NCBI GenBank assembly: GCA_002118135.1
Contig: BDIU01000121.1
Location: 159,446 to 223,445, forward strand
DNA: 64,000 nucleotides
Source of the DNA: Trebouxia sp. TZW2008
Taxonomy: Eukaryota > Chlorophyta > Trebouxiophyceae > Trebouxiales > Trebouxiaceae
Reading direction: 5' to 3'
Position 1 is the stretch's first letter; every line of letters begins with the position of its first letter. Positions 131 to 63,476 of this stretch are shown here, in pieces. Position numbers and translations under genes: made by a program. The notes below the pieces were generated by a model. The model was not told the origin of the DNA. It did not search any database and was given only the letters and a program-made list of their open reading frames with translations.

Positions 131-3100
131 ATGCAGCCTGGTTTCTACCCATATGGGTCCAACCCCATGATGTCTCCTTACGAGTGGTCGCAAGGAATGC
201 AAATGGCTGGAGTGCCCGCAACTGGCCTGTACATGTCTGGCCCTCAGTCTGGGACGCAGGGACCTTGGAACTGGAACCATGCAATGTCTGGCACATTTCC
301 GCAAGTTCCTGGGCGTACCACAAACAGGCCACAAACAGGACCTGCCATCCGCAGCCTCCAGCAGGCTATTCAGGCAAGAACGCAAGTCTGGCAAATGTCA
401 AGATGGCAGAAATGTTGTCTACACATGATTGCAGTGCATCACAGAGGACTACACTGCAGCAAATGAGACTTCACAACTTGGTCTCAGCCCAGGCCTGGCG
501 TAGCGCTCCGTCAGCCTGACATTGCAAGCATGATGGTGGAGGAGCACTTGCTGCTCTGAAAGCAGCAGTCCTGAGCTGCTTCTACTCACCAAAGCCCCCG
601 CTATGGCGCCTAAATGCGCTAACTAGTGCATTTGCCTGAGATCTTGCCATTCAATGCTACCTCCTGCACACAAGTCATCTAAGGGTGAATGTTCAAGCGC
701 TGCTGCACCTGCATGCCACAATGACATGCTGAGGCATAGCCTTTTCTTTGCGTGTGCAGGAGCAGTTCAGCAATCTGCCATCAGCAGCAGCTCTGGCTGT
801 AGAGATGCACATCAGCATGTCAGTGCGGCATGCAGATGCAGCAGCGCTTGAGCTTGTGTCCTTAGATGACCTGTTTGCAGCAGCTAGCATTGAATGGTAA
901 GGTCCCAGGCAAATGCACTAGCTAGCGCCTTTGCTACAATGTGTACTCTATGACTGAAGCTGGCAAAAGGGGACGTACACTTCGTATGAGATGCACACAA
1001 CACTGGCAGGCTGTTGCAAGGCTACAGTCAAACGTAATCACAAAGCAGCAATGCAGGTGCAGTATGACATCATGCCGCAATAGTAGCATACCTCTTACGC
1101 TGAACATGTGTGCAGGAGCATGCGTTTGAAGGTGTTGCCGCCTAATGTTGTGACATCACTCCCCTTGCAGAGCGCATGTGCAGAAAGCCTGAAGCAGTTG
1201 CAGCAGGTGAGCCCTTGCCTTTGCTGCCTTGCTGAAACATCACATTACTGGAGGTAGCTCCCAGAGAAGAGTGTTATTTCAGTGTATAGACTGCTGTTCT
1301 TTGTGTTGCTGTCATTGTCTCCTTAGAGAAGTATATTGATCAATCTGCAACAGGATGAGCCTCTGCTGACAATATTCTCCTGTGTTTCAGGCCTATCTGA
1401 CAGGTCAAGAAACGCCTTCATTGTATGTGACATACTACTGGGACAGCAAAGTACCTCAGCAGCATGTGTCCATACTCTCAGCGCCCCTGGAGGCTGCGTT
1501 GCAACAACTGGTAGCTCAGCCTTCTCTTGGGAAGCCCAAGGTGTCAAATGCAGTGCCAAATCTCAGTGGGCTGAACTTAGCAGCGCCCGGCGGGCAGGTT
1601 GGCTTTGTTGATAGTGAGGTAGAGGAATGGATCGAAGCTGGCGGCATTGAGAGGGTCCATGCTGCATATCATAAGGTTAGCAACTTGAGCCTGTGCTTGC
1701 ACTTTAGACATGAAGTCACGCGCAAGCACATCATTGTTGCATCAAGCAAACAAAATGGCAGACAGATGTTGTTGATGTTGCGGTAGAGGAATGAATTGAG
1801 GCTGGTGGCTTTGAGAGGGTCCACAATGCATATCACAAGGTCAGCAGGACCTTGTGATATGCATTGTTTTGCATGGCATGTATCAAGCTCTGATCCCTTG
1901 TCTGTGTTAACAAGTCTAGGCGTCAGCTCTGACACCAATTACTACGTCATTTGTCAGAAAGCACTCTACCTGATCTTGAGCATCAGCATCATTATTGTCC
2001 AACAGCTTGCAAATAAGGCAGCAGTAAGTCCTGTTGCCCCAAGAAAGTACACGCTTGCTGTGATTTCAGGCTGCCTCTACTCCCAGAGGCTCCAATGTTG
2101 ACGCCTAGACGGCCCAGATTTTCTGTTTCTGCTTGAGGTTTCACATGTTGCATAGTCAAGTGCTCTGGGTCTTGAAGCTACGTTGTTGGCTTATCTGCCG
2201 CGGTTTGAGAGCTTGCAAGACTCAGAGATAGACAGTGTCTGCTCAAAGCCTTAGTTGTGGAGGGCTCTGGGGATGGTGTTGCTGCAGCTTCTGATCACAA
2301 TCCCCAAGGTCAAGAGTTGCACAGTGACTCCACGATATGGCACGGGTGATGGAATGAACCGCTGGCCAAATACTGATGATCTCATGCACTGTGCTTCAGG
2401 CCCAGGCTCTTGTCAATGGAAAGGCCTCTAAGGCTGGTGTTGCTGCAGCTTCTGGTCAAAAGCAGTCCTGTGAGGGGTCGAGTTCTGGCTGCCATGATGG
2501 CCTAATGAAGCAGAAGCAGCAGCCCAAGCAGAAGGAGCAGAAGTCTGCAAATGCTAGCAGCAATGCTTTTGCCATTCGCTGACTCGTGCTTCTTCTGCTT
2601 GGGCGGCTGCTTCTGCTTCTTCTTGACATCACGGCTGCCAGAGCTTGTCTCCTGAGAGCATCTTTGCCATTGATGCACCAAATGCAACATGTGTGTGAAA
2701 CAGTACAACTTGCTGTCAAACTCTAAGGCCATGTACTTGTAACTGTCATCATGCATCGACACATGGTGATACCCTGATTTTGCATGCGTCAAGGCAAACC
2801 AAGCATGAGGTGTGACATAGGCAAGGAACTCTGACATCTGTTGATAGGAAGAGCCTGGGCCTGGAGCACAGTGTATTGCGAAGATTATCAGCATTTAGAC
2901 AGCAACCCTTCCCATCACCTGTGCCCTACGGTGCAGTCACCACACTTTTGAAGTTTGACTCAAGGTCAAAAATGTGTGCTTGAACAAAACAAGGCATCTG
3001 TGGTTTGACAAAAACACTTCATGAAGCTGGTTCTTGACTTTGGGTATCACTATGCAGGATCTCAGCAGACTGTCTCAAAATTATGCTGGTCTTGAATGTC

Positions 3101-6100
3101 AGCCCGTCTATCAGCTTTGCATTGCAGCAGCTTGTCTGTCAACAAATCGAGCCTGAAGACAGTACATGCATGATTTGGCTATCTTACAAAATACCAAGAG
3201 CTCTGACTCGTGAAGCTGTATCTGTGTGTTTGCAGGATCTCAGCAGACTGTCTCAAGATTATGCCGGTATTGATGTCAGCCCATCTATCAGCTTTGGACT
3301 GCGACAGCTTGTGCCTCAACAGACAGACCCTGAAGTTGATCACCAGTATGCATACATGTCAAGTTATGGGATCAGAACTCAGCAAAACAGTCAGCAGCCA
3401 TTTAGTCAGCTGACCAACAGCAGCTCAGACCAGCTGGCTAGTCCAGACCATTTGAACTACTTTAGGCAGCTTGTTGTCAAGAACACTCATTCTGACAACG
3501 TCCAGTTGATAGACGTCAGGTTTAGTCAGAAGTTGCCCATGTGGCCAAACACCATGGCTCTTATTGATGATGCAGGCATTGTCTCAGTTGTGCAACATTC
3601 ACAAAATAATGCACCTATAGGTTTTGGTCGGCAAGATCAGCATCACTTGCATCAGTCGGGTCATGCTAGTAGTCCTGCGCAAGATCAGCAAAAGAAACAG
3701 AAAAGAAAAAACAAAAACCAGCCCAAAAGTCAGCAAAATCAGCAGCAGCAGTCCAGTCTCAGCTCTCCAGGCAAATCTAGTACAGGCAGTTCAGGAGAGG
3801 CTTCAGCTGACAAGCAACCCCCAGATCTAGCCCAAGGGGGTCAGCAAGGGGGTCAACAGGGGGGTCAGCAAGGGGTCCAACAGGGCATTCAGGGGGTGAC
3901 CTTGCGGCAGGGGGAGGAATACGGCGTTACTGTTGTGTTGGACTGCCTTGACGGTCCTCACAGAAGGTAAGCCAGGCTGCATCAGCTTGCCTTGAAAAGA
4001 AGACAATGGGTCATGTCAGGAGCTGTCATTGATCCTTGAAGACTAGACAGGGGGCTTAACAGGGCGTATCAAGCACACATGGTGTGCTTTGTCAAAGCAT
4101 TTGTCTCATAGTATGGCACTTGATCTTGGAGCCCAATTGGCTGATCTGCATAGAGGCTGCTGACTGTGCCACCAAGCTGCGGCATTTATATGCTGAGCCA
4201 TGCGTCCTGCTACGCAAATGCTCATTCAGTAACACAGCTTGTGCATTTCATGTAGGCGGGAGTGTGGTGTATTGCCTCAGCTAGTCCTCTTCACCTTCTT
4301 AGTCAACCACACCAAAGCTGATACTAAAGTCAGCCGAGTTGGCAGTGGCGAGGTGAGTAACTCAGGGAGTGCTCACAGCAGCCGGCCAAGCAGTGCGGCG
4401 GCCACCGCTAGGACCCACACCCCACCGCCATGGCCGATGGCCACCGCTGGCCAGAAGCCAGCTGAAACCATCACAATGGCAGATGGCTCCTCTGCAGAAG
4501 TGGTGGTTGTAGGTATGCTGGGCCTCTCCACTCACCAATCACTCAAAGCAATCTGCTGTTTCAGGACCACTGCCACAGCAACCCAACAAAAGGTCATGGT
4601 ATGAATGTCAGGCACTACACAGTCTTGGGAGCTCAGTAATTGTGCAGTGTCTGCATGCATGTGAACCGTCTTGGCTGTTTGTAAGCCCTGTCTTATCAAT
4701 CAGTCAGACTGCTGACACAATGGCTCAGGCAAAGCTCTTTGCACCTCCACAAGCTGTTGCTGTGAGTGCGCTGCATCTTTATGGGCTCTTTGTGAGGATG
4801 CAGCATACTCAGAGCAGTATTTAACAGCTGCAGAACAGCTTGGTTGCTGCATCATGTTGATGCTAGGTGTGATATCGTACCCTTCAACAACCTTTCCCCT
4901 GTCAGACTAAGCTTTTTCCATTCAACTCCATGGTCCTCAACGCTAACTTCAAGGCAAACCTTGCACTCAGATGTATGCCATGTGATCGCTTAGCCTTGCA
5001 GCAATATTTGATATGCAGCAGATGCAAAATGGACAGACAACATATCAGGTGAAGATGCTCTGACAATGATCAAATGTTGCCACATGAGGTGGTCTGCAGT
5101 GTTGATGCACGCTCAGATCTTTGTGTGCTGCACTGCAGCAAGCCAGATGTGGCGCATCAGCGGCAGACCCTTCATGACATGGCAACAAGTGATTGCTGCA
5201 CAAGATTGGTTGATGTGTTGAAGCACAGCTCGGTTTTGTGTAGTGCACTGCAGCAAGGCAGCTCTCTGTGTGCCTAGTGAGCAAGGCAGATGTGGCACTT
5301 CAGTGACAGATGCTGCCTGCCAGTGTTTGCTGCACAAGGTGGGTTTGACGTGACACATGCACATCCAAGATATTGTGTGGTGCAATGCAGCAAGGCAGGT
5401 TTCTGTGTGCCTAGTCAGCAAGGCACATGCGGCAGATCAGCGGCAAATGCTCAGTGTCAAGGTCAACAGTAATCGCTGCACGACTTTGGCCTGTGGTGTT
5501 GACGTAAAGCTAAGTTGTCTGTGTGGTGCAATGCAGCAAGGCAGGTTTCTGTGTGCCTAGTCAGCAAGGCAGATGCGGCAGATCAGCGGTAAATGCTCAG
5601 TGTCAAGGTCAACAGTGATCGCTGCACAACTTTGGCCTGTGGTGTTGACGTAAAGCTAAGTTGTCTGTGTGATGCCTTGCAGCAAGGCAGGTCTCTGTGT
5701 GCCTAGTCAGCAAGGCAGATGCGGCAGATCAGCAGCAAATGCTCAGTGTTGAGGCCAAGCCTTTTGTCCCAGACCACCTCAAGGCCCTGTTTGACATGCG
5801 GCCAGCCCACTTTGTGTCGTGCCAGAGGCCCCTAGACATTCTTTTTGGCCGCTGGTGAGCTCAAAGCCTTTTGTTACAGACTCTCTCAACAGTGTATGCA
5901 ACCAGCAATCAGCACACTTTGCGCTGAGTCAGAAGCTCTGAGACGTTTGCTTTGGTTGCTGTTTAGCTGAAAGCGCTTTGTCCCAGACCATCTCAACATC
6001 CTCTTGGACCAGCGGCCAGCCCACTGTATGTCATGCCAGAGGCCCCTAGGCATGCTGTGTGGTCAATGACAAGCTCAACAGCCAGATTTGCATTGAGATG

Positions 6101-9100
6101 TGTCTGCTGGTGTCAAGAGTCAGGTCTGGAATGTGCACATGCAGCGCATGCCTCTCATGCAATGCATAAAGTGGCTAATTGACCAACAATTTGACTGCAA
6201 GTGCTTCAGGTATACCGTAGGGTTGATACAGACAATGTCAAGGGTGACAGCAAAAGCATTTGTGCTGTGCCTGCTGAAGCATTATCCATGTGTGCATTGT
6301 GAGGCGCATGCCAGTGCGACAGAGAAACATCTCCCTCTTTCCTTACACACATTTGACCTGAGTTGATGGTTAGCTATCTATGGTACTTCAGGCTGCATGA
6401 AAGTGACAGCAGGGTTTTTGCCGCTTATGGCACCGACTCAGTGAATGCAGGCTGAGTGATAGTGACAGCAAAAGCGAGCAAGCTTGCAGGCAAAGCTCAG
6501 TCTCATCGTTGCCTGAGGGGTGGTCGTTGAAAGACATCTCAACAGTACTTTCTTGGCAAGGCTAAGATCTGGATGTCGCCACAGTGCAGGAGATCGCAAG
6601 CCAGACTGTCCTGAGCGATCCGTCTTGTTCATGGATTGCCTCTTGTGATGCAGGCTGAGTGATAGTGACAGCACAAGTGTGCAAGCTTACAGGCAAAGCT
6701 CAGTGTCACCTTTACCTGAGGGGTGGTCCCTAAAAGATACCTCAGCAGCTGTCCGCAAGTGGGTGCGTCTGTTGCGCCTGGAGGAGACTGCACTTCATCA
6801 AGACATCAAAAGGCAAGCATTGTTGTTGCGCAACTGTCAGATTCCCAACTGCAATTTGCGTCCTGCTCGAATTGCATTGTGTTTGTCCCTACTTACTTCT
6901 AGTGCGCTGGGATACTTTGAAGCAACCGCTGTTTCCTTAAAGTTTGAAAGAAAAAACCACCATCATTGTTTCTTTGCTTCTGCAATTGTGATGCATCTGT
7001 GCTTCCTGTCCATGAAGCTTGACATGTATATACACATCTTGCAGCAGTCTGTCACGCAAGCTGCATTTTATTTAGGAAGTTGTGATCAATTTAGCACAGA
7101 CGTCTTGGCACGATGCGATTTGTGTGTAAATGAGACATGGAATGAAGCATGCATTCTAGATTGTATTGTGCCCATGAGCATATTGTTGCAAGGCTGCTTT
7201 CTTGTCTGAATCACCTTCTTGCAGCAACAGCTGGCATGTGATTTTGCCATGCATGCACTAAATTTTATTGTTTCTAATTTCCATTTGCCAATATAGAATG
7301 TGACTGACTTCGCATGGCACAACGTTCATGAAATGCAAAAGTCTGATCCCCATGCAGGTTTGACATGTTCAATGTCAAGCTCAGTCAAGTCAAGTTCTAC
7401 CCCAACCAGCGCTCTTACTACCTCAAGGATTTGGGCAAAGATGAGCCAACTGAAAAGCAGAACTTCCCATACAGGTGAGACGTTTTCAAAGTCTCTGAAT
7501 GGTTGCCTGCAGCTGTCAGCAGATGTTGTGCGCAGTTTTGTTGTTCATTTGAGTTCATGGGAGGGGCAGCTCTGTGTCCCTGGCAGTAGGCAAAGCTGTG
7601 TGTCCAAGCTGCAGTAATGCTCACACTTGCTCAGCTCAAAGCCAGTTGCTGTGTGCTCTGGGGCTTTGACTTGACTGAAGGTTCTCCTCATGTGGGAATG
7701 TCTGCGTTGTAGCACCAACGCCAGGCCATACAAATGCCTAAAGTTGCTACAGTATGACATCTGGTATGGTCAGTTGCTGAAGCTACATCTGTTGCATCCC
7801 TGCTCTGGGGCTTCTCAGATACGCCATAGGCCTGAAGTCTGCGTCACTGTCCTAGGTTGCTTTATAGCTTGGTACATTGCAGATTCAATGGGACCATGCT
7901 ACTCATTCAGTTCAGTGAGCTGCATGCAGAGGAACCAATTTCATGATGTTGCGTCATGCAGTTATCAGTTTCAATGATGATGCTTCCAAGCATCCATGCT
8001 TGAGAGTGGATGTTGTGCCAGCGCAAGCATCAAGACCTGGACGACAAGCCTTGTGTTTTGACTGGGTATCAAAACCATTTCAATTTTGAGTGCTTTTGTG
8101 CAAGGGGTCCAAAGCTGCAGAGCCTGACCAAAAGCTTCCAGAAGAATGGCAAACAATCTCTGCCATTCTTTGCCTTACAGGTACTAGCAGAAACTGCCAA
8201 GTTTTGCCTTTTAGCATGCAGAGCGCTTGACCATCACTGCATTCACCACCATTCACCTGAAAGGCCACTTGCTCAACATTGTCTCATGCAAAGACTGCCA
8301 CCATGCGCAGTCTGAAAGCCCTTTTGCTGTCACTTGCAAAGTCCTGCTGAACATGTCGTGTGCTGTTGCTGTAGCAGATTATTTGGGACAGTGCTTGATC
8401 ACGCATGCCTTTGTCTGCGCTGTAGTTCCATGGTGCAAGAGCTTGTACAGGCTGTGGCACTTGATCTTGCCTTGGCTCTGTTGCACATGAGGTGTCAGGT
8501 TGATCTCCCCGCTTCATTCTTTCATTCATTGTAAACGTGGGCTGGGCAGGCTCAGCAGGCCCATCTAGGTATGTACAGAAGCAATCAACTGTCTCCAACC
8601 AGTTCAAACATGCATATTAGGAATTGGGTGTGCAAGATGTCTATTATGGCAGAGTGTTGCATGAGCTTTCCTCGTTTTGCTGCCCCCTCTCCCCTCCTTC
8701 CTCACCCCCCGCCCACAATCTATGTGGAAGCCTGAGACATCACCTGATTTCTATCCAGTTGTTGCCAGAAGCCCTAAGCTTTTCTTATGCTGCCGGTTTT
8801 GTCTTTCCTGATGTGTTTCTCAACGATTCTGATGCATTGCAGGTTCCAGGGTTGGTGGAGAAGAGACCCAACTTGGTTATTGGAGACCTGGTCTACCTCA
8901 GGTTACTCCATGCCTTGATAGCTTGATGCATGTTATGGCCAGATGCTAACTACATAGGAGGCAAAGCTTTGTGTTGTGCATTTCTTAGTCTACATCAAGT
9001 CATCCCATGTCATTCAAAGCATCCATCTGCAAGCACCATTCTTGCCTGCCTTGCAGCAGCACAAAGAATATGCAGATTTAGCTCTGCCTTTACTTGGCCT

Positions 9101-12100
9101 TGCCACTGCCAGATTTCATGTCTAAAACATTGTACTGCACTGAAATTTGTGCAAGACTGTTGGTGTATTTGACAAGCTTTTGCTTGCGAAGACTCACTCA
9201 GAGCAGCAACAGGCTGTCAGCATGAGGCCTGACATGCTTCACCATCGCAAAACGTTCCTGGGCTTCTCAAAGCACTGCGTATGGGCTGAGCTGTTGCACA
9301 GGTTTGCTGGCAGTGCATACAAGGTGTGCAATATGTTGGTGGTACCACACTGTGTCTAAAGCTCCACATATTCATCACTGTCTTCCTTCTTTGTCTCAAG
9401 TGATGTATCTGACTAGAGCCATGGCCCAGGTTTGCTGGCAACGCATACAAGGAGTGGAGTGGGTGGGTGCTCCCGCACTATGTCTAATGCTCCAGATACG
9501 CATCACAGTCTTCCTGCTCTGTTTCAAGTGATGTCTGTGACCAGAGCTGTGGCACAGGGGTTGCCAGCAGTGCATACAAGCAGTCCCTGACACCAGCAAA
9601 ATGCTGCCACACTGTGTCTGAAACTTCCATACTCCCCACATTAGAAAAGTCTTCCCTTGCTATCAACTGCTGCACCTGACTTGTGGCGCAGGTTTGCTGG
9701 CGGTGCATACAAGGAGTGGAGTGGGTGGGTGGTTGTTACACAAGACGCTCAGTGCATGCTGGCAGTGCCTCAATTGGACTCCGACCAAGGTTGGTCATTA
9801 CTAGCAGTATGCAAGCCTTGCTTGAAGTCTCTGCCTCAATGGCGCCCTTGTGCGCATCAGCAGCAAGAGTTGTATGCAGCCCACTGCTCTCCTGTACTGC
9901 CTGCAGCTCAAGTCTGTTGCAGTGCAGTGTAGCAATTGTTATGACAATGTCACCAATGATCAGCAGGCAGCCACAACTTCTGATGTCTTGTAGCATTGCT
10001 GTTGCAGATGTTGGGAGCTGTGTGTTGGTGCATATGAGCTTCACCTGTGACAGGACACCTTTCAGGCGCATGCTGCGTGCTCTGCATGCTGTGACCAAGC
10101 ACCTACACACAATGTGGATTTCATCAACAGTCAATAGGCGGACTTCCTGATGTCTTGTAGCATTGATGTTGCAGATTTTGGGAGCCATGGGTTGGTTCAT
10201 GTGCGCTTCACCTTTGACAGGACACCCTTCAGGCGCATGTTGCATACTCTGCATGCTGTGGCCATGCACCCACACACCATATGGATGTAGTCAACGTTCC
10301 CCAGGCACAGTCTCGGATATCTTGCGGTTGCAGATGTTGGGAGCCGTGGGCTGGTCCACGTACGCTTCACTTTTGACAGGACGCCCTTCAGGCGCATGCT
10401 GCGTGCTTTGTATGCTGTGGCTACGCACCCACGCACAATGCAGCTGCTGCCACCACAACCTGTCAGCACCACCTTGAAAGGTGATGGCTTGTCTAGTCCC
10501 TGACTTGCTGCCTTATATCCATTGCAACCCATACCAACCCCAGCTCAACAAGGCTGGCCTGGCCCGCACTGCGCCGTGATGTGCTGTGCACTATCGTGCT
10601 GTACTGTTCTCATCATTGCCTGCCCAAGAGATCAACGTCAATCTCTGTCAGCGAGCTGCATTCAAAATGCTGGCATTTGCAGCACACATTTCTGCTTTGC
10701 TGACAATGACTGAGCGCACTCATTTCTGCTTTGCCTCTTCGTGTCCTGCTCCAATTTGTCTGCCTCTCACGCTTCAAATGGTGCTGCCTGTACATTGTGA
10801 CCCTGTGCTACCCTTGTCTCCCTACCATGTCACGACTGCATGGGCACTTATCTCACTGTCACATCATGACTTGCAGGTGGAGGGGCAGGGGCAGGGCCAG
10901 AGGGCAGCAGCCCTGGCGCTAAAGCTGGCCTGCCCAGTGATGGCCTGTTCAAAGCCGCCCTCACAGCTCAAGCTGCACAGGTCTGCAAGCAATTCCTGTT
11001 GTGATGATGTACTGTGGTCCTTGTGGTCCTGCATCTCAGGAAAGTACAGTCCTAAGTCACAGTCTGTACATGCTGTGGACTGCAGCTTTTGATGAATATC
11101 AATTAAGGAAGCCTGATACGTGTTGTTGAGACAGCATAGCCCATTGTGGCTGGCCACCAGCTGCACCTGTGCTGCTGTTCAAGCAGCCTTATGCCGAGTG
11201 GTTCATGCAACTGTGAAGGGCACCAAGACTGCACAACTGCCAAGCCAGCAAAAGCTCAACAGGAAAGCCAGATTGCTGGAGGAGCTGGCAGCACAGAAGC
11301 TGAACACTCAGCAGCGCCATATGGTGGCAATCTGCTCTTGGCTGAGTAGCTTTGCACAAGTGCTCAATGTGACTGTGAAGGGCAACAAGGCTGAACAGCT
11401 GCAAAGTCAGTACGCACCAAAGTGAGACTCCAGTTCAAGCATTCATCAACACTCATCATCAACTTGGAACTTCTGTCTGTGCAATTCTTCCTCAAGTGAG
11501 CAATCAGCGATGTGACTATGAAGGGCACCAAGACTGCACAGCTGCCAAGCAAGCAGAAGTTGAACAGGAAAGCTGGATTCCTGGAGGAGTTGGGAGCACA
11601 GAAGCTGAACAGTCAGCAGCGAGAAGCAGTGGCGTCTGTGCTGGTGGGCGCAGGGGGGGGGTTGCATCCCCTCACCCTGTTTGGGCCCCCTGGCACTGGC
11701 AAGACAGTCACTCTTGTTGAGAGCGCTCTCCAGGTGTGCTGCAAAGTCATTATGCATTCACACAAATTGCAGCAGTCGCTATTCAAGCTAAACAAGCTGT
11801 GGGGGGGGGACGGGGGGGGGGGAAGGCGCCTGTGCTGGTGGGCGCAGGTGGCCCCCCCCCCTCACCCTCTATGGGCCTTCGGGCAAGACAGCCATCCTGG
11901 TTGAGTGCGCTCTTCAGGTGAGCTGCAAGGTCATCATGCACTCTCAAGTTCAACATGGCTAGTCAAGCGTTATAAGAGGGGTACAGGGGGGTTGGGGAGT
12001 TGCCCTGACTCGATTTGGGCCCCTGGCACCGGCAAGACAATCACCCTTGTTGAGAGCGACCTTTAGGTGTGCCTTGACAAAACAAGCACTCCAGTTGTAC

Positions 12101-13666
12101 CACACCGACGGACACTGTTGGCACTTGCATGCAGTTGGAATTGGCCTGTACAGCACTTGGCTTGCAACTGGCCAGTAGACACAAGACTACACGAGTACAG
12201 CACAAAATTGTTGAGGCCGCTCTAGATGAGTCAGGACATAATCCCACCACGCATTCAAAGTGGACATTCCAGTACACAATCACGATCGGAGTACATTTGA
12301 GCAAGCACCAAACTGGTAGTGGAGAAATGACTGAATCCTCGTTGGTGAGCAGCAAAGCGGCAGAAGTCATTTGGTCAAAATGTTTTGCAGGTGTATAGGA
12401 CAGTGAAAGGGGCTCGGCTGCTGATGTGTGCCCCTCAGAACTACAGTGCAGATCTGCTGTATCGTGCCCTGGCCGCTGCGGGCATCACCACTGACTACAT
12501 GGTCAGGCTGGTTGACCCTCGCATCCCACCTGCACAGGTGGGAATTTGCTCTCCAGTTGCTGTTTCTGGCAGTAAGTTTGGCAAGAGGCAAAAATTTCCC
12601 TCCAACTGCTCAAGTTGCACTTGCTGCTGCTGGCAACAGCACTCATGAACAAGAGACTTTTGCACAGAGCATGCATGTCACTATTGACTCCATGGTCAGG
12701 CTGGTTGACCCTCGCACCCCTCCAGCACAGGTCACATACCTCTCTCAGTTTGCAGCCCATGGCAATGGCTTTTGCATTCGCACACTCCTCACTTGTTCAG
12801 ATGTGTGATTGAGGATTGTTGAGGCACCTGATGCCACAAGTGCCGATAGAACCAAGAGGTTGTCTAGCTTCTCCATTTCAGTACATCTTTAGCTCATTGT
12901 GTGAGTTTGCACGCCCAGACTGTGTGATGCTGTAAGCACCATCACCCACCTTCTGCGCAATCTAGCTCCTGTGCCAATCAGTCAAGGCCATGGTGTAACA
13001 CGGTTCTGCATGCAAGGCACAACTTCGCATGCATGAAATATCTTGTGGCTGCAGTACCCAGCCATCCCTTTTCACAATACATTTTGGACCAAATACACGT
13101 GACAAATTCATTGGACCTAGTGCTTCCACATCGCTTGCTTTGTTCATGGTCAGATGTAGATGTCAACAAGTGTTGCAGCAACACTGTTCAACTTACCTTC
13201 ATGGGTGAACTTGAAAGCTCTTTTGCTCAATCAGCAGCTTGCAAACAGGTGCAAGAGGACGTCAGGCCCAAGTGCCTGTTTGATGATGACACCAACTACT
13301 TTGGACTGCCTAGCCCGGAGCAGCTGGCCAGCTACTATGTGGTGGTCTGCACTTGTGGCGCTGCCGGTGATCACTGTCTTTGATCCTTATCCTGCTGTTG
13401 ACTGTCACTGAGCCGTGTGCTGTTGGTCACTGTCACTGACTCTTGTTGTGCTGCTGCTGCTGCTGCTGTTGCTAGCTTGCGCTTGTGCACATGTGGCAAT
13501 GCTGTTGAGCACTGTTGTTGAGGCTAGTGCTGTTGCTGCTGCTGCTGCTCCCGGTGATCACTGTCTCTACATCATGTGCTGTTGTTGTTGCTGCAGCTGC
13601 TGTTTCTGCCGATGAGCACCGTTTCTGACTCTTGTGCTGTTGCTGTTGCTGCAATCGTTGCTGCAA

Positions 13667-13710
<44 letters not shown>

Positions 13711-13920
13711 GCCGCCGGTGATCACTGTTTCTGCATCTTGTGCTGTTGGTGTTGCTGCAACTGTTGCTGCTGCTGGTGATCACTGTCTCTATATTTTGTG
13801 CTGTTGATGTTGCTGCAACTGCTGCTGCTGCTTTTCTGCTGGTGAGCATTGTCACTGACTCTTGTGCTGTTGCTGTTGCGCACCAGCTCTGAGTCACTGC
13901 TGTTGCCCACTTCCACTGAG

Positions 13921-13961
<41 letters not shown>

Positions 13962-16900
13962 AACATTGCAGGATTAGACTCAGCACCAGGTTCAATGACT
14001 GCAAGCACCAGCACAAGACCTTGGTCTAGCGAGTCTTGTACTGGGACTCACAGTCACTGGGTGCGGTGCTGCTGCTGCAGCTGTTGCTATTGCTGCTGCT
14101 GCTGCTGCTGCTCCTGCTCCTGCTCCTGCGTAGCATGCTACGATAGCAGCACGTCGTACCAAAACCTGGCTGACTGGTATATCCTTGGTCAGATGCATAT
14201 GGGTGCTGCACAGGCATCCTGCGGGAGGGTGCGTATGGCAGCTACTATGCTGAGGCCTGCAAGGAGCAAGTGAAGCAGAAGAGCACTGGTCTAAGGCCCT
14301 TGGAGTTCTCTCATGTCATGATTGATGAAGCAGGACAGGTCAGCTCTGCTTCTCCTTGCATGCTATACGCGTGTTGCATTGCAGTCAGTCTGCCACTTGT
14401 TTCTCCGTCCGTCCATGATTGCTCACTCGCAAACTAGTCACTCAACTGCTCATTGCCCGCCTGTCAACTCACTCACCCTGCAACCCAGCTACCTTGTTGC
14501 CAGTGAGATGTCAAGATCATCCATGAGGCTGGCATATTTTGATTCCTGACTCATACACCTACTTGTGCCATGTGCCTGATATCTGGAGCAGGCTCCAAAT
14601 GACGCAGTTGTCAATAACATGCCACAAGCTTGTGATAAACAGGTTGACATGGCATATTCAGCAACAGCAGCAATTTTTTGGCAAGCATGCTGAAGTGATC
14701 CCATAGACTGGATTCAGCTGCGCAGTCTGTATGTGAGCTGGTACAGTCAGGCTAGACTGTAATCAACAGACCAAGATTGCTGTTGAGCAGACAAACTGCA
14801 CCTGAAGGCAAAAGCTGCTTTGCCCTGTGTACATGTTGTTGCACCCTTCGTAACAAAGTGTGTGTCCACGCAATACATAATCTGCCTGTGGCCATACGGT
14901 TGACCAGGCATAGCTGAGTCCAAACTGATGTTGTTGAGCATAGACAACTGAGAACAGGGATTTCAGCTCAAGGTCTGCCCATAGGAAAACCAGGAACATT
15001 TCTCTACCTTCAAGAAAGGAAAGACCTCTTGACAAATGCTGTTGCCTTTCTGCAGCTGTGGTGTGCATGGTGCAGTGATATGGCACTGTCTTCAACAAGC
15101 CCGAATTTGCAATGCTGCTTATGATACTTGTGTCAGTGTCAAGACTGCTCGTGACAGATGAAGATGTGTCATGATGAAGTGTGCTTGTGTTTGCAGGCAC
15201 TGGGGCCTGAGGCTTTGATCCCGCTGACGCTGCTTGCCCCCAAGGATAGCTGCGCCATGCTGTGTGGAGACCCAAGGTCAGCCTGTGAATCTCCTGCATA
15301 ATTGCTGCACATTTCCCTTTGTGTTGCTATGCTGCATCCCTCTTTTTGCCTTGCTGCCCATCTTCCAAACTTGCTGGTTTTGAGATTTTCCAGCTGTCTT
15401 TCCTGCCGCCCACAGCTCCTTTCCAAGCTCTTCTTTTGGACTGCACAGGTATATCTTTTCTGGTCGCTCATTTTGCCAAAGTGGCTGAGACTGGTTGCTT
15501 TTTTGATATACACTGCTTCAACTGCAGGCAGTTGGGACCAGTGCTGCACTCCACAGCAGCTGAAGCTCATGGCCTCAAGACATCTCTGCTGGAGGCCTTT
15601 GTGCAGTACCATGGGACTCAGCAAGCACTGTACACAGAACAAGGCCTAGCACCCTGCCTAGGTATTCCTAAGCATATTTTGCTCAACCTTAGCATAGTCA
15701 GATCCTCGTGATCACTGTTGTGGCTCCACTTTTATGTTGAATTTCGATACTCTGTGCAATTTGTGCTGAATGCATGATCACTGCTGAAGTCTGAGTCTGC
15801 TAAGACATCTCTGCTGGAAGCCTGTGCGCAGTTGCACAAAACTCAGCTCCAGCTGTACACAGATCAAGGCCTAGCACCTTGCCTGGGTACTCCTTAGCAT
15901 AGGTCCTGCAAGCCCAGCACATTCAGAAGTTGATGGTCATGTTGCATTCTGATACTCTGTGCAGTTTGTGCTGGATGCGCGTTCACTCCTGAAGTCTGAG
16001 TCTGATAAGGCATCTTTGCTAGAGGTCTTTGTGCAGTATCATGGGATTCAGCTCCAGCTGTACACAGATCAAGGCCTGGCGCCCTGCCTAGGTAATTGGA
16101 CCTTTGCAATGTCAATCTGACTTTGCATTGTAGACACTGCTGGTTTGAAGCCAACCCTGCATTGCTGAGGTGACTTTGTGCTGCACACACGCTGGTGCAA
16201 TCCAGTGATGCGAATTTGCAAGTGCTAAAGTGTAAAGTTCAACAACCCAGTCAGGCCTGCAGTGATGTGTCCCTGGTCAAAAGTCAGGCTTACAGTGCAA
16301 TTGTGATATGATCTTTCTTCTGCAGGCATATTTGGCTGGCTGGACTTTGCCCTGCAGGCATTGCTGATAGGACTTCTCTTTTGCGCTGTAGGCATCCTGG
16401 TGCACAACTATTGCAGCCACCAGCGTCTGCTGGAGCTGCCCAGCAGGCTGTGTTCAGGCAATTGTGCTGGCATACTTGGCTGATTGCAGGCATTGCTGAT
16501 GTTGAGTTGCACTGCAGCTGATGCGGCTTGGCAGCGCAGGCTTGCTGGTGTACTGCATTGCTATGATTGGCATTGCAGACATTGCTGATATGACTTCTTT
16601 TTGCGCTGCAGGCATGCTGGTCCACAACTATCGCAGCCACCAGCGCCTGCTAAAGCTGCCCAGCCGCCTCTGCTATGACGACCAGCTGCTGGCATATTTG
16701 GCTGGCAGGGCTCTGCCCTGCAGGCAGCTAATGTCACTATTATTCTGTTGTTCATGTTACATTGCACCGCAGCCAATGCGCCTCAGCCCTCCAGGCATGT
16801 TGGTGCAACCTTGATGCAAAGGGCATTGCTGACGTGAGTTTGCCCCTGCAGGCATGTTGGTGCACAACTACAGAAGCCATCAGCGTCTGCTGGAGCTGCC

Positions 16901-52703: not shown

Positions 52704-52969
52704 GCTGCACGCGTCAAGTGATTCAGCAAAGCACGATAGCAATGAGCTGCGCAAGGAGCAAACGCAGAACTTTCGGAGCATGCTGCGGCGATTACTATTT
52801 AGGCAGGCGAAGAAGAGCAATGCAGGAGCTGCCATTGCAGCGTTTCGGCTTGCAGCCAGCCCGACCGATCTCGTTGCGCGGATCAGGCGGATTGCCGGGA
52901 CGACGACACTTCATCGTATCGTCGCTATTTTCGTCGCGTTGTCGCTTTGAGCCACCGTCCACCCTTGCA
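52704..52969. promoter_or_regulatory. Compact divergent promoter (Cpn10 / importin)
   Basis: 266 bp between opposite ATGs. Contains CG-rich words (TTCGTCGCGTTGTCGC near 52930) but no element I can name with confidence. Confidence 0.55.
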
Positions 52970-55900
52970 ATGGATTTGAACACGCTATGCACGGTATTAC
53001 AAGCCAGTCTGAGTCCGGACATGGCTACGAGGAAAACCGCCGAGGACCAGCTGAACAAAGTATGCAACGCAAAACATATGCATTCGATCCAAGCCCCTGT
53101 GCTTCAGAATGTTTGACGCAGTGTTCCGGACTGTGCTTGATCGCTCACGCTTTGCACGTTGCAACGCGACGCGCAAGCTTCAATAAACGCTCGATGTCAT
53201 CCATGTGGCAGGTTCAGCACGCAAACGGCTATCTAATCAACCTCCTGAGAGTTGCTGTCGAGGATTCTCTCGATACAACGCTGAGACAAGTTGCTGCGAT
53301 TCAAATCAAGAACATAGTCAAGCGCGGCTGGGATCCTGAAAGTACGTATAATACACCACGGTCAAGCTCCATGAGTTGCGACAGCATCTGATTTCTGGCG
53401 AGCTTGGCTTGACCATCTCGTTGCCAACTATCTTGATGACTTGCAGATGGTGACAGCCCAATACCCATAGCAGACCAGCAGGCACTGCGAGATAGCTTGC
53501 TAGAGGGCCTCATTAGGTATGCAGAAGGTTTGGATGCTGCCTTGTCATGCAAGGCTGATGTAAGGCTTGATACAGAGGAACATCGATGACTTGCACAGGG
53601 CACCCCGAATTGTGCAAACCCAGCTGGGAGAATGCATGAAAAGCATTGTCCTAGTTGACTTCCCAGAAAAGTGGCCTTCTCTCCTGCCTCAGCTGGCCCA
53701 GAACCTCCAGTCACAGGTGCGCAGTAAAACCTCGATGTCCAACTGCCCTGACACATTGGTCATTTGATGCATCATGACATGCACTGCCATCGTAAGCAAA
53801 TCTGTGAAATTGCTTATGGAAGACTTGAGCCTTCAGGATAGCAGCATTGCATGTGTGAGGATTACACTGCTTTATAACAAGGCCAGCCATGTTTGTTATG
53901 CCTTGTCTTATATGCTGTCAGCAGCTCTGATCCTGGCTCTGATGCAACGCTGCAGGAGGAGCAAAGATTGTATGGGGCACTGTATGCACTTCGCTTGCTG
54001 ACCAGAAAGTATGAGTTCAGAGATGCAGAGGAACGAGTCCCTCTGGATCACATTGTCAAGACCACGTTTCCTACTTTGCTGCAAGTCTTCCAGGTATACC
54101 TCAAAATGTCTGTTTGCTATGTGTTATATGACCGCCTCTTGATTATGCTCAGTGACTGATGTGATTAGCATACATACACTGCAGGCAGCAGCACACCTTC
54201 TGTCACAGACTGCAGTCATGATTGCACAATGCATGGCATGACATAGAAGCCTGCGCCAGGCACATTAGTCCCTTCCGCACATGCTCTTGTTTGTGAGCTT
54301 GCGGTGTATGGTTGTGTGCTGCATGCATTGCTGTTTTCTGCATGCGAGGGGACAACATCATCATCTTGATACACCAGTACATGGGAAATGTGACTATTGA
54401 TAGCAGGCCTTGAGTGCAGGCTGCATAGCCACTTTGCCGTTGCTTATACCCGTTGTTGACTGCACACCGTCCGTTCTGCTTCTTCCATACTGCATTGGGT
54501 TACACTGCTTCACACCAGCTTGCTGAAAACGTTGCAGGTCCCTTGAGAACTTGCAGCGCCTGCACAGGGGCCCGTCATTGGCAGCAACCACATCAGGAGC
54601 ATTTCTTGCATCACAATGACGGTCATGCCTCTGCTGTGATTACAGGGCTTGCTGCAGTCAGGCTCGCAGGCTGAGGTTATTGCAGAGCTGCTCAAGCTGA
54701 CCTGCAAGGCCTTTTGGTCAGCTACCTACATGGCCATTCCAGATCTGCTGCTACAGCAAGACCAGTTTGTGGGTTGGATGACCTGCATCCACTCCTTCAT
54801 GGAGATGCCTGTGCCCAAGGTGTGTTTTGCTACTATCTCTTCGTGAGATGCCCATGTACATGGCCATTCCAGATCTGCTGCTCCAACAAGACCAGATGTT
54901 GCATGGATGGCTTGCATTCACTCCCTCATGCAGATGCCTGTGCCTAAGGTGCGTTGCAGCATTGTGTCTTTGCAATCAGCACAATAGCTGCAGGTGCCTT
55001 GAATTTCACAGGGTTGTAAACTGCATGATGTGCATACTTTGTTATTGAAAGCATAGGCTGAGTCACCTGCATCTACTCACTCATGGACATGCCTGTGCCT
55101 AAGGTATGTTGCACTGCAGGAGGGACAGCCCCAGGATGTAGAGGCACGAGCAGCGTGGCCCTGGTGGAAGGCCAAGAAGTGGGTGCTGCACATCACCTAT
55201 CGCCTCTTCAGCAGATATGGGGACCCCAAAGCCAGCCGCAGCGGCACTGATGGCAACTTCATCATGCTTTTCAGCCAACAGTGCAGCCTGCAGTTCCTGA
55301 ATGCCCATATTGGCCTCATGGCACAATTCTCACAGGTAAGCTTTGGCCTTTGTGTGGCTGCGACGAAGGTGATGGCACTGTACGCATCGATCAGGATGAT
55401 GCGTTTCTGTTCAGCTGCTGTGGGGACCCCAAAGCTAGCAGCAGCAGCACTGATGGCAGCTTCATCATGCTGTTCAGTTAGTAGGGTAGCCTGCAGTTCC
55501 TGCATACCCACACTGGCCTCCTGGCACAGTACTCACAGGTAAGCTGTAGCAGCGCCCATGTCTAGCCGCAAAGTCGCCAGTGCATCTTACAAAAACTTTG
55601 GGTCCCTGTCATGCCAGTCAGGAGGCTATCTGTAGTGTTCACAGCAACAGGCTCTTCCTCCATAGTGTATGCTGCATATCCAGATTTGCACTGGGAGTTG
55701 CACGTGGAGTGGCTCGTGCTCAGGGTACTCAATCTCTTTCTGCAGTCGGTAATGTACAGCTTCACCCTGTCAGCCACTCGAAGCAGATCAAGACACACAT
55801 ACATGTGCGGCTGACCTGGTGCATCCTGCCTGTCATGTACTGGAATCTGAGCTTGTTTGCATGCAGGGTGAAGTGGCTCTTGCTCTGGGTACTCAATCTT

Positions 55901-58526
55901 TCTCTGCATTATGTGACTGTAGGCTTTCGGCTCAAAGATGGTTGAAGCCAGACATCAATGCTTTTGACACATCTTGACATCAATGTTTTTTCCTGTTCCT
56001 CATTTGCTTCAATCTGGGCTTGTTTGCACGCAGGGTGAATGGCTCTCGCCCAGGGTACTCAACCTCTCGTTGCAGTATCTGACCCACGGCTTGACCCTGT
56101 CAGCGACCTGGAAGCAAATGAAGCCCCACGTCAATGCGCTGCTCACGCGGTGTGTCCTGCCCCTCATGTGCTTTAATGATGAGGATGATGAACTGTGGAG
56201 GGAGGACCCTCAAGAGTACATCAGAAAGGTAGACACCAGAGACAGCAACATGTGTATTGGCAACTCTCAGACAGTTGTTGCATGTTTGTTGCGCAATTTC
56301 AGCTGAAAATACACAGGGCCATTTCTCTCTTCCAAAGCTGGACTTGTTAGTCATTACATGCAACTTGTATGCAAGCTTTGAAGCCAGGCAGTTTGCATGA
56401 ACCATGGTGTTGACATGACATTGCACATGTCCAACATGATGCCAAGGCAAGCTTGGTATATTGGAACAATTTCAAGACGCTGCATGCAACGCACTGCCCT
56501 TGAATGCACAGAAGTGCATGGCAGAAAGTGGGTTGTATCTGATGAGGCCTCAATTCACTGTGCTGCTACAGGGGTATGACATCATTGAGGATATGTACAG
56601 CCCCAAAACCTCAGCCACAAATTTTGTGCATGAGCTATGCACATGCAGAGGCAAGGAAAACCTAGCACCCCTTTTGCAACTCATCAAGTCCACCTTTGAC
56701 GCTTTTACGGTAAGCTTTCCTCGGACCAAGTTCTGCCGTCAGCGCATGCGTGTAATGGCTTGACTGCTATCACGCTGTTGAACTGTTGAAGCCCTGTAAG
56801 TCATACAGTAAACCCTGGTTGTAATGACTGCTTTGGCTACCCAGACATTTGTCCTTACATTCAATTGTCCTTACTCAGGAGGACCTCTGCAGTCAGAATG
56901 CAGTGATTGGGTACCAATGGCTTTGTCCTTACAACAAGATTGTCCTTACACTGAGTGTCCTTACAAAAAGAGTTTACTGTACTACTCAGCCTGTTGTCCT
57001 TACACTGAGTGTCCTTACAAAAAGAGTTTACTGTACTACTCAGCCTGTTGTCCTTACACTGAGTGTCCTTACAAAAAGAGTTTACTGTACTACTCAGCCT
57101 GTTGCAAAGGTTTTCTTTCTGCAGTCACACTGTCATTGTAAAGTCTTCCTGCACTATCCAGGCTTGCATCCAAGTGCCACTGCTGGCCAAAGTGCAAGTG
57201 TCAAGTTGCCATGATGCACAAGCACGGCTGACATTTGCTACTGCTCAGCCTGTTGCAGAGGTTGTGTTTCTGCAGTCGTTGTCAAGTTTTTGCTGCACTA
57301 TCCAGGCTTGCATCCTGGCGTCACTGCTGGCCAAAGTGTAAGTGTCAAGCTATCAAAGTGATGCATGAGCATAGCTGATACTTGCCCAAGTGTAGCCTGC
57401 ACTTGCTGGAGATCTGTCTACAGATTGTGATGGTGCCTGTGGCACAACAACGGTGTATGGCCAACCAAGCTGCCTTGCTGCAGGCAGCTCAGCAGCAGAA
57501 CCAAGTGACACAAGAGGTGGCTCGCCAGACAGACGGTGTCTTGTTAGCTGTGGGGGGTCTTTCAAGCGTGCTCAAAAAGAAGGTACGTCAGAGTCATTGG
57601 CAGGACACTAAGCTGCATGGCCCGTCAAGTGTTCTCCAGCTCTGCTGCAGCCGCATCTGATTGATAAGCACGATTGTCTGACTTTGTACAATTGGTGTTG
57701 TGTGGTGGGCACAGCCAGAAGCTACGTGGTGACTTTGCAACCATCACATACTGTCAACGCATGATGACTGCTTGTGAGTCTCACACACTCAGCATTTGAA
57801 CCAATCACATCATTGTGCTCAGCACAACAGTGATTGTACTTGTTCTTATGCAACACCTATACAAGCACCAGTTGGAGGGACTGTATCTGGCAAAAGTCAT
57901 GCCCAGTTTTGACAGTCCTTATTGTTACCCGAGAAGAAAGGCCTGTTGGGTGGCAGGGCAGTATGCAATCATCGCATTGCAACCATCTGTATCATCAGTT
58001 TGAATTGTATGTGTCAATGCAGGAGCCGTACAAGCACCAGTTGGAGGGACTGTTGCTGGCAAATGTCATGCCCTGTTTTGACAGTCCTTATGGACACCTG
58101 AGGGCAAAAGCGTGTTGGGTGGCAGGGCAGTATGCAGACATTGACTTTGCCGAGGGTGCTGGACAGGGCCAAGCTTTCACTAGCCTCTTCAACAAAGTCG
58201 TCAATGCCTTCCAGGACCCTGACTTGCCGGTGAGCCTTCTTTCTGGTGCACAGCAACTTGCTCATTGCTTGCCTGCCTGCTTGCTCGTGTCTGCCTCTTG
58301 GGCGGCAGGGCATTGTGCCTATATTGACTTTGCTGAGGGTGCTGGTCAGGGCTAAGCCTTCACTAGTCTCTTCAACAAAGTGGTCAATGCCTGTCAAGAC
58401 TCTTACTTGCCGGTGAGATTTGAACTTGTGCACAGCAACTTGCTGAATACATGCCTGTTGGTGTGCCTGTGATCGGCTCGCTTATTTGCTGGCTGTTCAT
58501 GCCTGATTGCCTGCCTGTCTGTCTTT

Positions 58527-58590
<64 letters not shown>

Positions 58591-61500
58591 CTGTCCGTCC
58601 GTCTGTCCGTCCAATCATCTGTCTGTCTGTGTCAATTTGTGACTGCCTGCCTGCCTACGTGTCTGTCTGTCTGCGTGTGCCTGCCTGCCTGCCTGTCCAT
58701 CCGTCTGTCTACCTACCCTTTTCAGGCGTTCTGGCAGTACTTTACGAGACTGCCTGTTCAAGCCTTCCTCGGTGCAATCAATGCAGGCTGCTGCAGCACT
58801 CCGATCATCCTTCTGGCTTGCTTCCAGAACATATTTCTCCTCTCTGCGAGCAACATGTTCAGCCTTGGGACATACGACTCTAATGCTGGGCATGTGCTGC
58901 AGGTGCGTGTGGATGCTGTGGTTGCACTGCGCAACTTCATTGATGGCTATGATGAAGAGGGTTTGCAGCAAGTGAAGCCCTTGATCCCGCAGCTGCTGGA
59001 CGTCTTCTTCCAGCTCATGCAAGAGGTCAGTGTTACAGCTCTCAATCGTGAATACCGTTCTGAGCATGACGTTGGCACATCTGTTTTGTCTCCAGCTTTC
59101 ACGAGTCAAACTGCACGCTGATGCTACATGCATCCTGCTTGCGAACAAGTTGGGACAAGTCAAATCTTGGCGCAGTGTCCAAGTCTTGTCATCCACGGCA
59201 AAAGTGTGTTGGATGCCATTCAGCACTCAGGCAGCTGCTATTTAGCCCTAGACTTTTTTTGTGTGGCTGGGCATGCTGCCTTCAGGACAAGTGCTAGCCA
59301 CTGAGAAGTATCCTGGTTTGCTTACTAAGCATTCACTGTGCAGGTTGACAACGAGGATCTGATCTTCACCCTGGAAACAGTGGTCGAGCGCTTTGGTGAG
59401 GAAATGGCGCCCTATGCTGTTGGCCTCACACAGCATCTGGCTGCTGCCTTCTGGCGCATGCAGGTCAGCACCATCATCAGCACCTCATCTGACTGCATGT
59501 ACATCACTTTGCTGTTATTGATGATATTTGTGATAGACATGCTTGTGCCTGGCTGCAGCCTTTTGTCTACATGCAAGTGGGCATCACTACAAGTACTGGA
59601 CGTTTGCCCATGAAGTCTTGGCCCCCTGTGCTGTGCTTCGTCTGATTCCCTGTGTCATGCAAGATGCTGCCCTTTGCTGTTGGCTTCACTCCTGGACACC
59701 TAATAAGTGCCCTGCATGAACAATTCAGCGTCACGGCGACCTTTCAACTGCGGCTCTTAGACACGACCAAAGTCTCAACTATGTCTTGCCATGCAGGGTT
59801 CAGATGAAGCAGAGGATGCAGAGGACATTGGCGCACTTGCCGCTTTTGGGTGCTTGCGGGCTCTCAGCACAGTCTTGGACAGTGTCAGCCGGCTGCCGCA
59901 GCTGTTTCCCCAGCTGGAAGACATCCTATTCCCGATCATGCAGGCCATGTGCAGTGAGGATGGCCAGGACGTGTTTGAGGAAATCCTTGAGATCATATCA
60001 TACTTTACATACTTTCCTCCAGAGGTGATGGGCTCAAGCACTAGTGCATTTGTTCTGCCTACTATCCTGTATTTGGGTAATTGCACAAATACAGGTGCAG
60101 CTGCTCAAATTTGTGTGCTATTGAAGCTCTGGCACGCAGCATTTGCATGCTGCTACGATGCAGCATTGCAATATATACTGCAGATCTCCCCTTGCAAGTA
60201 GAGCTTATGGCCCCTGCTGCACAGCGCCTACAATGAGTGAGCAGCAGAGTATGGGCCAACAGCCTTGACCTGGTTGCTGCCAAGCCATGCTGTTGCAGTA
60301 CTGAATACTGGCATGTGCTGCAGATCTCCCCTCGCATGTGGAGCTTATGGCCCCTGTTGCACAGCGCCTACAATGACTGGGCAGCAGAGTATTTGGACAA
60401 CATCCTTGTGCCACTGGACAACTTCATTTCCAAGGGCACTGAGGTCTTCCTGGCCTGCAAGAATCCTGACTATCTTGCTGAGGTGTGAGCGGCTTCTATG
60501 CACGACTTACGTTATCAGAGCACAGTCAGACCTTGCAAAATCAGGGAACATATTGGTTGTCTGTGGCAAAGGTAGTTGTGAAGCTCACATGCGTCATAGG
60601 AGCATCTCACCATTAGGCTGTGATGCTTTGCCCTGTCAAGCCTGTGGTGTCAACAAGGATGGCCTAGTCAGATGTCAGACATCAGTCAGGCTGCTCTTTG
60701 ACAACTACTTCAGCAGCCTGTTGCATCTTGATCTTATTTTACATCTGCTGTGCATTACCTGTTACTGGCCTGAAGACTCCCTATCGCAAATACTTGAGCC
60801 CAAGCACATTCAGGATTTCAGCTACCTGAAAACTTTACCAACCTGAGTACAGCACTTCCCGTGATGTCAAAGCGTGATCTATCCCTGATTGACTGCACCT
60901 TCTTTACAGCGTCAGAAATGGCATGCCCGCATGCAATGCATTATGCCAGCATAAGGTCCTATGCACAGTGACGCATGCAATGGACTCCATGCATTAGTAT
61001 CAGACAATGATCGATCTGCAGGCCAGCCAGATGGCAAGCAAAGCGCTGCAGTCTGAAGACCTGGGAGAGGATGAAATGCAGCCTGCTCCCAAGCTACTGG
61101 AAGTCATCTTGCAGAACTGCAGAGGTCAAGTTGATCAATGCTTGCCGCTATATATCCAGGCAAGACCATCTGAGCTTAGCCACTTCCGTTCTGGCTGGTT
61201 GAGCTATCTGCATGGACACTGTGCATGCACTGGAAGGAGTCTTGTTAGTTTTTGAAGATTGTTTGAGCTCCAAAGATGGAGATCAAACAATCTTCCAGCT
61301 CCCAGAGTTGCAGGCTTGCATACCTTTTCTGCCCAAAAACCAGCAGCAGCATGGTAGTAGACATTGTCTGATTGCACAAAGACACAATGCCTGGACTGTG
61401 CCGAAGCCTCAAACCCTCTCAGAAAGCAGGTGGTGTCTATATGTTCACGTCGTGTATCTCTCGAGATCAGCCCATTACCATGACTAGCACCCCAATCAGC

Positions 61501-63476: not shown

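Follow-up and report, generated by a model that had tools for sequence, protein, structure and literature searches.

Worn-out exon copies in Trebouxia introns are probably remnants of short, locally acting tandem duplication

The nearest described anatomy that we found for a partial exon copy within an intron is a case in potato (PMC4974935), where, according to the accessible portion of that report, a short tandem duplication across an acceptor site leaves a partial copy of the exon in intronic sequence. That case concerns one new intron in one gene, whereas the copies described here occur across the sampled genome of Trebouxia sp. TZW2008 and are mostly decayed. They were noticed in a stretch of 64,000 nucleotides, which we call the window (G000:C117:159446-223445), where exons of several genes are accompanied by copies of their own edges in the adjacent intron. 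Tandem exon duplication and mutually exclusive exons, as described in the accessible parts of PMC9013439 and PMC5740500, also involve local direct duplication of an exon with its splice sites, but the Trebouxia copies are often partial and decayed. Introners, in the portion of PMC9860276 open to us, likewise add intron sequence throughout a genome; they insert and make introns, whereas the Trebouxia duplicates copy their own neighbour, and a genome-wide search with one pair recovered that pair alone. Direct repeats close to intron borders are treated in the accessible part of PMC11782384 as well, but these are 4–30 bp long and read as insertion scars, whereas the arms of the Trebouxia exon–intron pairs have a median length of 91 bp and are diverged. 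A literature search to which subscription papers were mostly closed found no report of genome-wide exon-edge duplication. The word ‘intron’ is absent from the main text of the Trebouxia genome paper PMC11523091, and the text available for a further one, PMC12712428, contains neither ‘tandem’ nor ‘exon’ and has ‘intron’ in its reference list alone.

We propose that these worn-out exon copies are best explained as leftovers of ordinary short tandem duplications, not of a special exon-copying or intron-making process. That they are remnants of short local duplications which took place mostly at some past time in this Trebouxia genome appears likely to us. A first-pass annotation of the window had reported the copies and named self-alignment and a randomised control as checks. 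Self-BLAST of the window returned 65 direct pairs at an offset below 500 bp and a single inverted pair below 1 kb; among pairs more than 8 kb apart, 7 were direct and 4 inverted. A helicase gene contains 40 pairs, a nuclease gene 13 and an importin gene 12. Many predicted exons of these three genes match the proteins of relatives in tblastn searches (54 of 84 are backed in this way). At least one copy not more than 1 kb away and outside supported exons accompanies 23 of the 54, a count that includes one exon (16326–16449) which, like a few other supported exons such as 55497–55538 and 58309–58344, is probably itself a copy. The exon-edge copies are thus real in the helicase, nuclease and importin genes named at the outset, whereas the secreted-protein gene named beside them was not confirmed, its candidate at ~24–26 kb lying in a pair-poor region. 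The genes in which no copies had been seen by eye are indeed poor in pairs, with one in the GLTP region and none in Cpn10; a CTP-transferase gene (none) and the region 31.5–39.7 kb (one) are similar.

Such pairs also occur throughout the genome as sampled. In 20 scattered stretches of 10 kb, picked by hand from 19 contigs and away from helicase matches, we found 217 direct pairs versus one inverted pair below 600 bp, about one per kb overall. Pairs were present in all 20 stretches, and a single first-order randomisation of each gave no near pair. In 100 kb of the intron-free prokaryote E. coli K-12 there are two direct near pairs. With a more sensitive word size the number per stretch ranged from 1 to 51 (index of dispersion 10.4), and one of six Cpn60/TCP1 gene loci lacked any pair. 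Two stretches, L021 (51 pairs per 10 kb) and L028 (35), are far richer in local duplicates than the others.

Exon models for 294 kb were obtained with a self-trained gene finder seeded with Cpn60/TCP1 and helicase profile matches. Predictions with a coding score below 12 were removed before counts (below 30 for the overall set of fourfold/zerofold ratios and for the decay simulations; the comparison with relatives had no limit). The output comprises 443 introns, with 74.7 kb of exon, 156.9 kb of intron and 62.4 kb of intergenic sequence. The 349 near direct pairs consist of 146 exon–intron, 106 exon–exon, 76 intron, 19 intergenic and 2 mixed pairs; the exon–exon class is inflated because the gene finder also took several decayed copies for exons, which is a warning for annotation. 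A non-exonic copy was found for 114 of the 399 predicted exons of at least 40 bp, and in 79 of the 443 introns there is an arm with a partner wholly or partly beyond the intron. Of the bases in introns, exons and intergenic sequence, local duplicates take up 18.6%, 19.7% and 4.4%, respectively, and recognisable exon–intron pairs cover 11.0% of intron bases. Although the two intron figures are lower bounds, old copies having faded, they do not bear out the claim that exon-edge duplication is the main source of intron sequence.

The proposed series of events is as follows. A short tandem duplication, by slippage, unequal exchange or end-joining of staggered breaks, would have a unit that spans a splice site. 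Selection would maintain one exon in the mRNA, whereas its partial counterpart within the intron would decay; from the sequences, the exon and not the copy presumably sits in the mRNA. In C. elegans, HELQ-1 is reportedly linked to keeping tandem duplications from arising (PMC8654963). The conserved arm would keep duplicates that hold an exon recognisable for longer than intron-only duplicates. Unlike freely inserted exon pieces, a unit that leaves a piece of exon in the intron must span the boundary, so that acceptors are expected in upstream and donors in downstream copies. After removal of overlapping arms, 117 of the 146 exon–intron pairs could be examined for boundaries and decay: the acceptor is included in 48 of 59 copies upstream of the exon, and the donor in 46 of 58 copies downstream, in line with the early impression that copies usually include the splice boundary. 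Direct orientation and adjacency agree with membership in the class of short local tandem duplications, as does the even spacing of multi-copy families. In three-copy families, the median spacing difference was 0.20 versus 0.54 after permutation (p ~0.001), as computed from the 23 spaced triples among 34 unique ones (of 93 in total), 8 of the 23 coming from the single stretch L021. The difference was below 15% in 9 of the 23 triples and above 40% in 8. Some arrays are alike across the whole unit (5374–5749, 95% matches; 9968–10440, 79%; 45353–45655, 84%). Nearest-copy offsets are mostly 60–240 bp, and the fullest 20-bp bin, both in the window and in stretches L009–L034, is 160–180 bp. This lies close to a nucleosome repeat length.

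Whether the exon edge itself attracts duplication was approached by placing pairs at random within genes, using 148 representatives of the 349 pairs. Random placement gave 57.2±6.1 exon–intron pairs versus 68 observed. Because this is nearly the observed number, no strong preference for exon edges is needed, and the notion of a process directed at exon edges is not upheld; there may still be a modest edge preference, given that arms reach the boundary more often than random placement predicts.

Several results weigh against the proposed tandem duplication. Exon arms reach a boundary in 60 of 68 representative exon–intron pairs versus a fraction of 0.70 under random placement. There were 28 intron-only pairs versus 53.9±6.2 expected and 42 exon–exon pairs versus 27.0±4.7, a deficit and an excess which could arise because duplicates with a constrained exon stay visible for longer. 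Acceptor-side arm edges, counted without overlapping arms, fall within the 10 bp upstream of the exon in 69 of 190 cases (0.36; shifted control 8.7), whereas simulated decay gave fractions of 0.16–0.25 in four settings and, in a second set, of 0.10–0.24 in the nine settings with more than 10 edges. (In the remaining three settings of that set, which had 9, 6 and 1 edges, the fractions were 0.56, 0.17 and 0.) When exon–intron pairs were divided into three classes by identity, flank similarity exceeded the 95th percentile of the control in 12%, 18% and 30% of them, versus 53% of intron and intergenic pairs (147 of the 349 pairs, gap 40–260 bp). Pairs with an identity of at least 85%, a gap of 40–450 bp and no overlapping arms number 60; the spacer is similar to the flank upstream in 19 of these and to that downstream in 21 (z >4), many of them in arrays; a separate flank comparison dropped gaps below 20 bp. 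Simulated arms had more gap openings (1.64 versus 1.14 observed per 100 bp) and a lower median identity (78.4 versus 80.9). Finally, the overall ratio of fourfold to zerofold divergence, 2.33 (2.04–2.68), hints at slight constraint on some copies.

Part of this pattern would be expected if exon ends up to the splice motif were copied into the adjacent intron by a templated or RNA-linked process, the flanking intron never being duplicated. Arm edges cluster at the splice motifs: the mode on the acceptor side is −5 (TGCAG), and on the donor side 35 of 160 edges fall in the first 10 bp of the intron (control 8.7), clustering near +5/+7. Boundary reach exceeds random placement and acceptor sharpness exceeds the simulations. 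The intron part is unrecognisable in most spaced exon–intron pairs, and their flanks are mostly unrelated although many arms are 80–94% identical (as listed for at most 34 ungapped exon–intron pairs of at least 83%). Edge counts overstate the number of events because pairs within arrays are not independent. Under the proposed tandem duplication, visible similarity would tend to stop at the splice motif because one arm is conserved; the pile-up at donor edges was reproduced by the best simulation (0.22 and 0.44 versus 0.22 and 0.46 observed). Splice-boundary copying is at odds with the nearly exclusive direct orientation and adjacency of the copies, with a spacing of repeated copies that is more regular than after permutation, with the existence of intron-only duplicates and with some arrays that contain intron and exon together. 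We regard it as unlikely, and are equally doubtful that Trebouxia has or had a kind of duplication tied to splice boundaries, chiefly 3′ splice sites, which lengthens introns and supplies pseudo-exons. Splice-boundary copying keeps some probability because acceptor sharpness and the missing flank similarity do not fit tandem duplication; they may reflect selection that disfavours a second working acceptor, conversion of the copy by the exon, fast intron turnover or a true splice-boundary bias. Templated insertion of random exon pieces, for which the missing flank similarity speaks, is disfavoured because copies carry the adjoining boundary and repeated copies are evenly spaced compared with permuted ones.

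An RNA-linked route was addressed with 353 exon–exon junction probes, which gave 24 raw matches spanning the junction and no clean isolated case, which may also speak against splice-boundary copying. These matches mostly overlap one of the two exons and extend by 13–22 bp, and two represent Cpn60 paralogues. Ten lie in the repeat-rich stretches L018, L019 and L028 and one in triplet-rich sequence of the window, places at which the intron may have been predicted wrongly; four of the ten array matches lie outside both exons (L018, L019) and are ambiguous. Seven probes were re-inspected together with their matches. The copies are probably not derived from spliced RNA. In the array at L018:5874–6631 the copies are ~165–175 bp apart, and the spliced exon junction of the predicted gene is contiguous in several units; the gene model there may be wrong.

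The decay of the copies was followed in 33 exon/copy pairs from the three window genes (at least 8 codons, a good match in a relative, overlapping arms removed). Compared with Trebouxia relatives, the copy had changed at 137 residues and the exon at 16; 498 were the same in all and 36 differed in all, and 84 were common to exon and copy but unlike the relative, some of which arose in the relative. Some exons enter more than one of these pairs, and the gene finder probably swapped exon and copy in one. Stop codons were found in 17 of 117 copies. Among 22 pairs of at least 88% identity, codon differences were 53 synonymous, 45 non-synonymous and 4 stop; the corresponding numbers were 170, 209 and 8 for 40 pairs of 80–88%, and 163, 249 and 8 for 35 pairs of 60–80%, the expectation for random change being 26/70/4%. 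The fourfold/zerofold ratio was 2.21 (1.87–2.56) for upstream and 2.07 (1.69–2.57) for downstream copies. By our own calculation, a ratio of ~1.8–2 is expected when a dead copy lies next to a constrained exon, and a far higher one when both copies are functional. The splice dinucleotides are retained in 38 of 48 (AG) and 36 of 46 (GT) copies, close to the neutral expectation. That copies are functional in general was rejected in view of this decay, though a minority could still be constrained.

The same data bear on a variant in which tandem duplication would have been followed by gene conversion from exon to copy, or by partial use of the copy as an exon, so that the copy stayed similar after the intron part had diverged. 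Such a course would account for sharp acceptor edges together with high arm identity, and the overall ratio slightly exceeds that of a dead copy. It fits poorly with the neutral-like retention of AG and GT, with the stops and with the strong bias of changes towards the copy. We think it rather improbable, while allowing it a minor chance.

Short tandem duplication with decay of the copy also agrees with the age spectrum. An identity of 95% or more is seen in none of the 127 exon–intron pairs that measure 50 bp or longer and in 6 of the 297 pairs that make up the four main classes, whereas two simulations with constant birth yielded 7% and 10% of exon–intron pairs in this range. The fullest 5% bin of the exon–intron spectrum is 80–85%. 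A similar spectrum resulted from the best of four simulation settings, with parameters chosen by hand, in which events at 0.10–0.20 substitutions per site were combined with one-sided constraint; the median ratio of arm length to offset was 0.46 in this simulation (pairs of at least 50 bp) versus 0.43 observed (all exon–intron pairs). Because very young copies are rare, we infer that a past wave suits the data more than a steady process does, provided that young duplicates were not lost through collapse in the assembly. The process had been described as apparently ongoing, against which these identities argue under the same proviso. Among the few very young duplicates of the window is a perfect 54-bp tandem repeat of ~3 copies at 56940–57104, in a predicted importin intron.

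The rarity of young duplicates, as collapse would produce, could also be taken as a sign that the copies are themselves an assembly artefact. The copies have many private differences and stops and a range of identities, no N occurs in stretches L001–L034 or in the window, and pairs are present in all 20 stretches on 19 contigs, all of which make an artefact very improbable.

Birth of introns through duplication of exon segments containing AG|GT had also been mentioned in the first-pass annotation. Its signature, a duplicate across both splice sites with an offset equal to the intron length, is seen in 2 of 443 introns, and in arrays such as those in L018 and L028 the end of one exon has a copy directly next to the other exon. 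The other 441 predicted introns are without the signature at the sensitivity used, and intron birth was therefore rejected as an explanation that has hardly any chance of being right. An introner-like element was rejected for 17918–18191, the one pair searched: with its spacer (274 bp) it matches only itself genome-wide.

If the density found here (349 pairs in 294 kb; copies for 114 of 399 exons) holds across Trebouxia, the genus would be a natural laboratory for intron growth by local duplication. It could then show how often duplications that span a boundary yield new exons or introns, and how far splicing tolerates decoy splice sites nearby.

The genome is that of a eukaryote, with 68.5 Mb in 527 contigs; the window has a G+C content of ~50%. 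The helicase gene of the window extends over ~0.76–21.7 kb, the GLTP region over 21.8–26.8 kb, the GEN1-type nuclease over 41–52 kb and the importin over 53–63.5 kb. Stop-masked frames (plus strand, 1–30, 40–50 and 52–62 kb; minus strand, 24–34 kb) revealed the Pfam domains MOV-10, AAA, GLTP, CTP-transferase, XPG and importin, the single-exon matches to MOV-10, AAA_11, XPG_N and Xpo1 falling under the curated cut-off. From domains, translations, named relatives and general knowledge we take the helicase to be SDE3/MOV10, the gene at 52.2–52.7 kb to be Cpn10 and the importin to be importin-7. The closest named relatives of the importin protein are those of Trebouxia sp. C0004 (84%) and C0010 (79%). 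The helicase protein is 53–65% identical to those of Trebouxia C0004, C0010 and C0005, and the nuclease protein 44–70% to those of C0010, C0006, C0004, C0005 and A1-2. An importin scan of viral contigs gave no match. The copies located in the three genes are listed in Table 1.

Table 1. Copies of exon edges in the helicase, nuclease and importin genes of the window (TRF, Tandem Repeats Finder; percentages are identities unless stated otherwise).
Exon and type of copy	Position of copy	Strand	Remarks
Helicase 1391–1675, donor-end copy downstream	1769–1846	+	83%; in-frame stop in copy
Helicase 3236–3728, acceptor-end copy upstream	3053–3158	+	85%
Helicase 5683–5854, tandem array upstream	5114–5612	+	period ~146 bp; exon and intron sequence; TRF 5374–5749, 95% matches
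Helicase 5683–5854, donor-end copy	5971–6083	+	79%
Helicase exon starting near 6654, upstream copy	6445–6545	+	86%
Helicase 9692–9789, upstream tandem copies	9286–9584	+	period 128 bp; 70–81%
Helicase 10334–10480, upstream copies	9976–10280	+	80–83%; TRF period 167 bp
Helicase 11518–11733, two donor-end copies	11825–12072	+	73–83%; extra upstream copy 11367–11406
Helicase 12391–12537, donor-end copy	12678–12732	+	89%; end at CAG|GT
Helicase 15528–15661, two donor-end copies	15802–16094	+	74–84%
Helicase 16852–16990, two decayed upstream copies	16353–16695	+	one called exon by gene finder
Helicase 18110–18259, acceptor-end copy	17918–18004	+	91%; pair with spacer unique in genome
Helicase 20424–20556, upstream copy	20157–20292	+	79%
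Helicase 20424–20556, three donor-end copies	20646–20945	+	20646–20683, 20754–20801, 20889–20945
Helicase 21531–21685, acceptor-end copy	21391–21463	+	84%
Nuclease 42668–42825, acceptor-end copy	42433–42517	+	78%; contains stop
Nuclease 43458–43548, acceptor-end copy	43248–43325	+	78%
Nuclease 43458–43548, donor-end copy	43765–43813	+	94%
Nuclease 44155–44318, acceptor-end copy	43979–44075	+	78%
Nuclease 45589–45681, upstream copies head-to-tail	45344–45538	+	period 117 bp; 84–85%
Nuclease 46090–46209, donor-end copy	46402–46452	+	77%
Importin 54646–54819, donor-end copy	54857–54955	+	86%; another copy 55065–55110
Importin 55120–55335, donor-end copy	55407–55545	+	84%; two in-frame stops
Importin 56034–56251, two upstream copies	55704–55917	+	spacing 164 and 166 bp
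Importin 58023–58229, acceptor-end copy	57860–57967	+	88%
Importin 58023–58229, donor-end copy	58298–58457	+	83%; contains stop
Importin 60324–60482, acceptor-end copy	60178–60267	+	89%; contains stops

The sole near inverted pair of the window joins 2324–2411 and 2849–2940 at 76% identity. Triplet-rich (TGC/CTG) stretches occur in the helicase gene at 13534–14129 and again at 50.6 kb, and give rise to a spurious exon call and to repeat pairs. On contigs C33, C157, C193 and C275, kinesin profile matches lie on the same strand, a few hundred bases apart at most, and overlap in their profile positions; read by eye, these overlaps look like protein-level exon copies in further genes.

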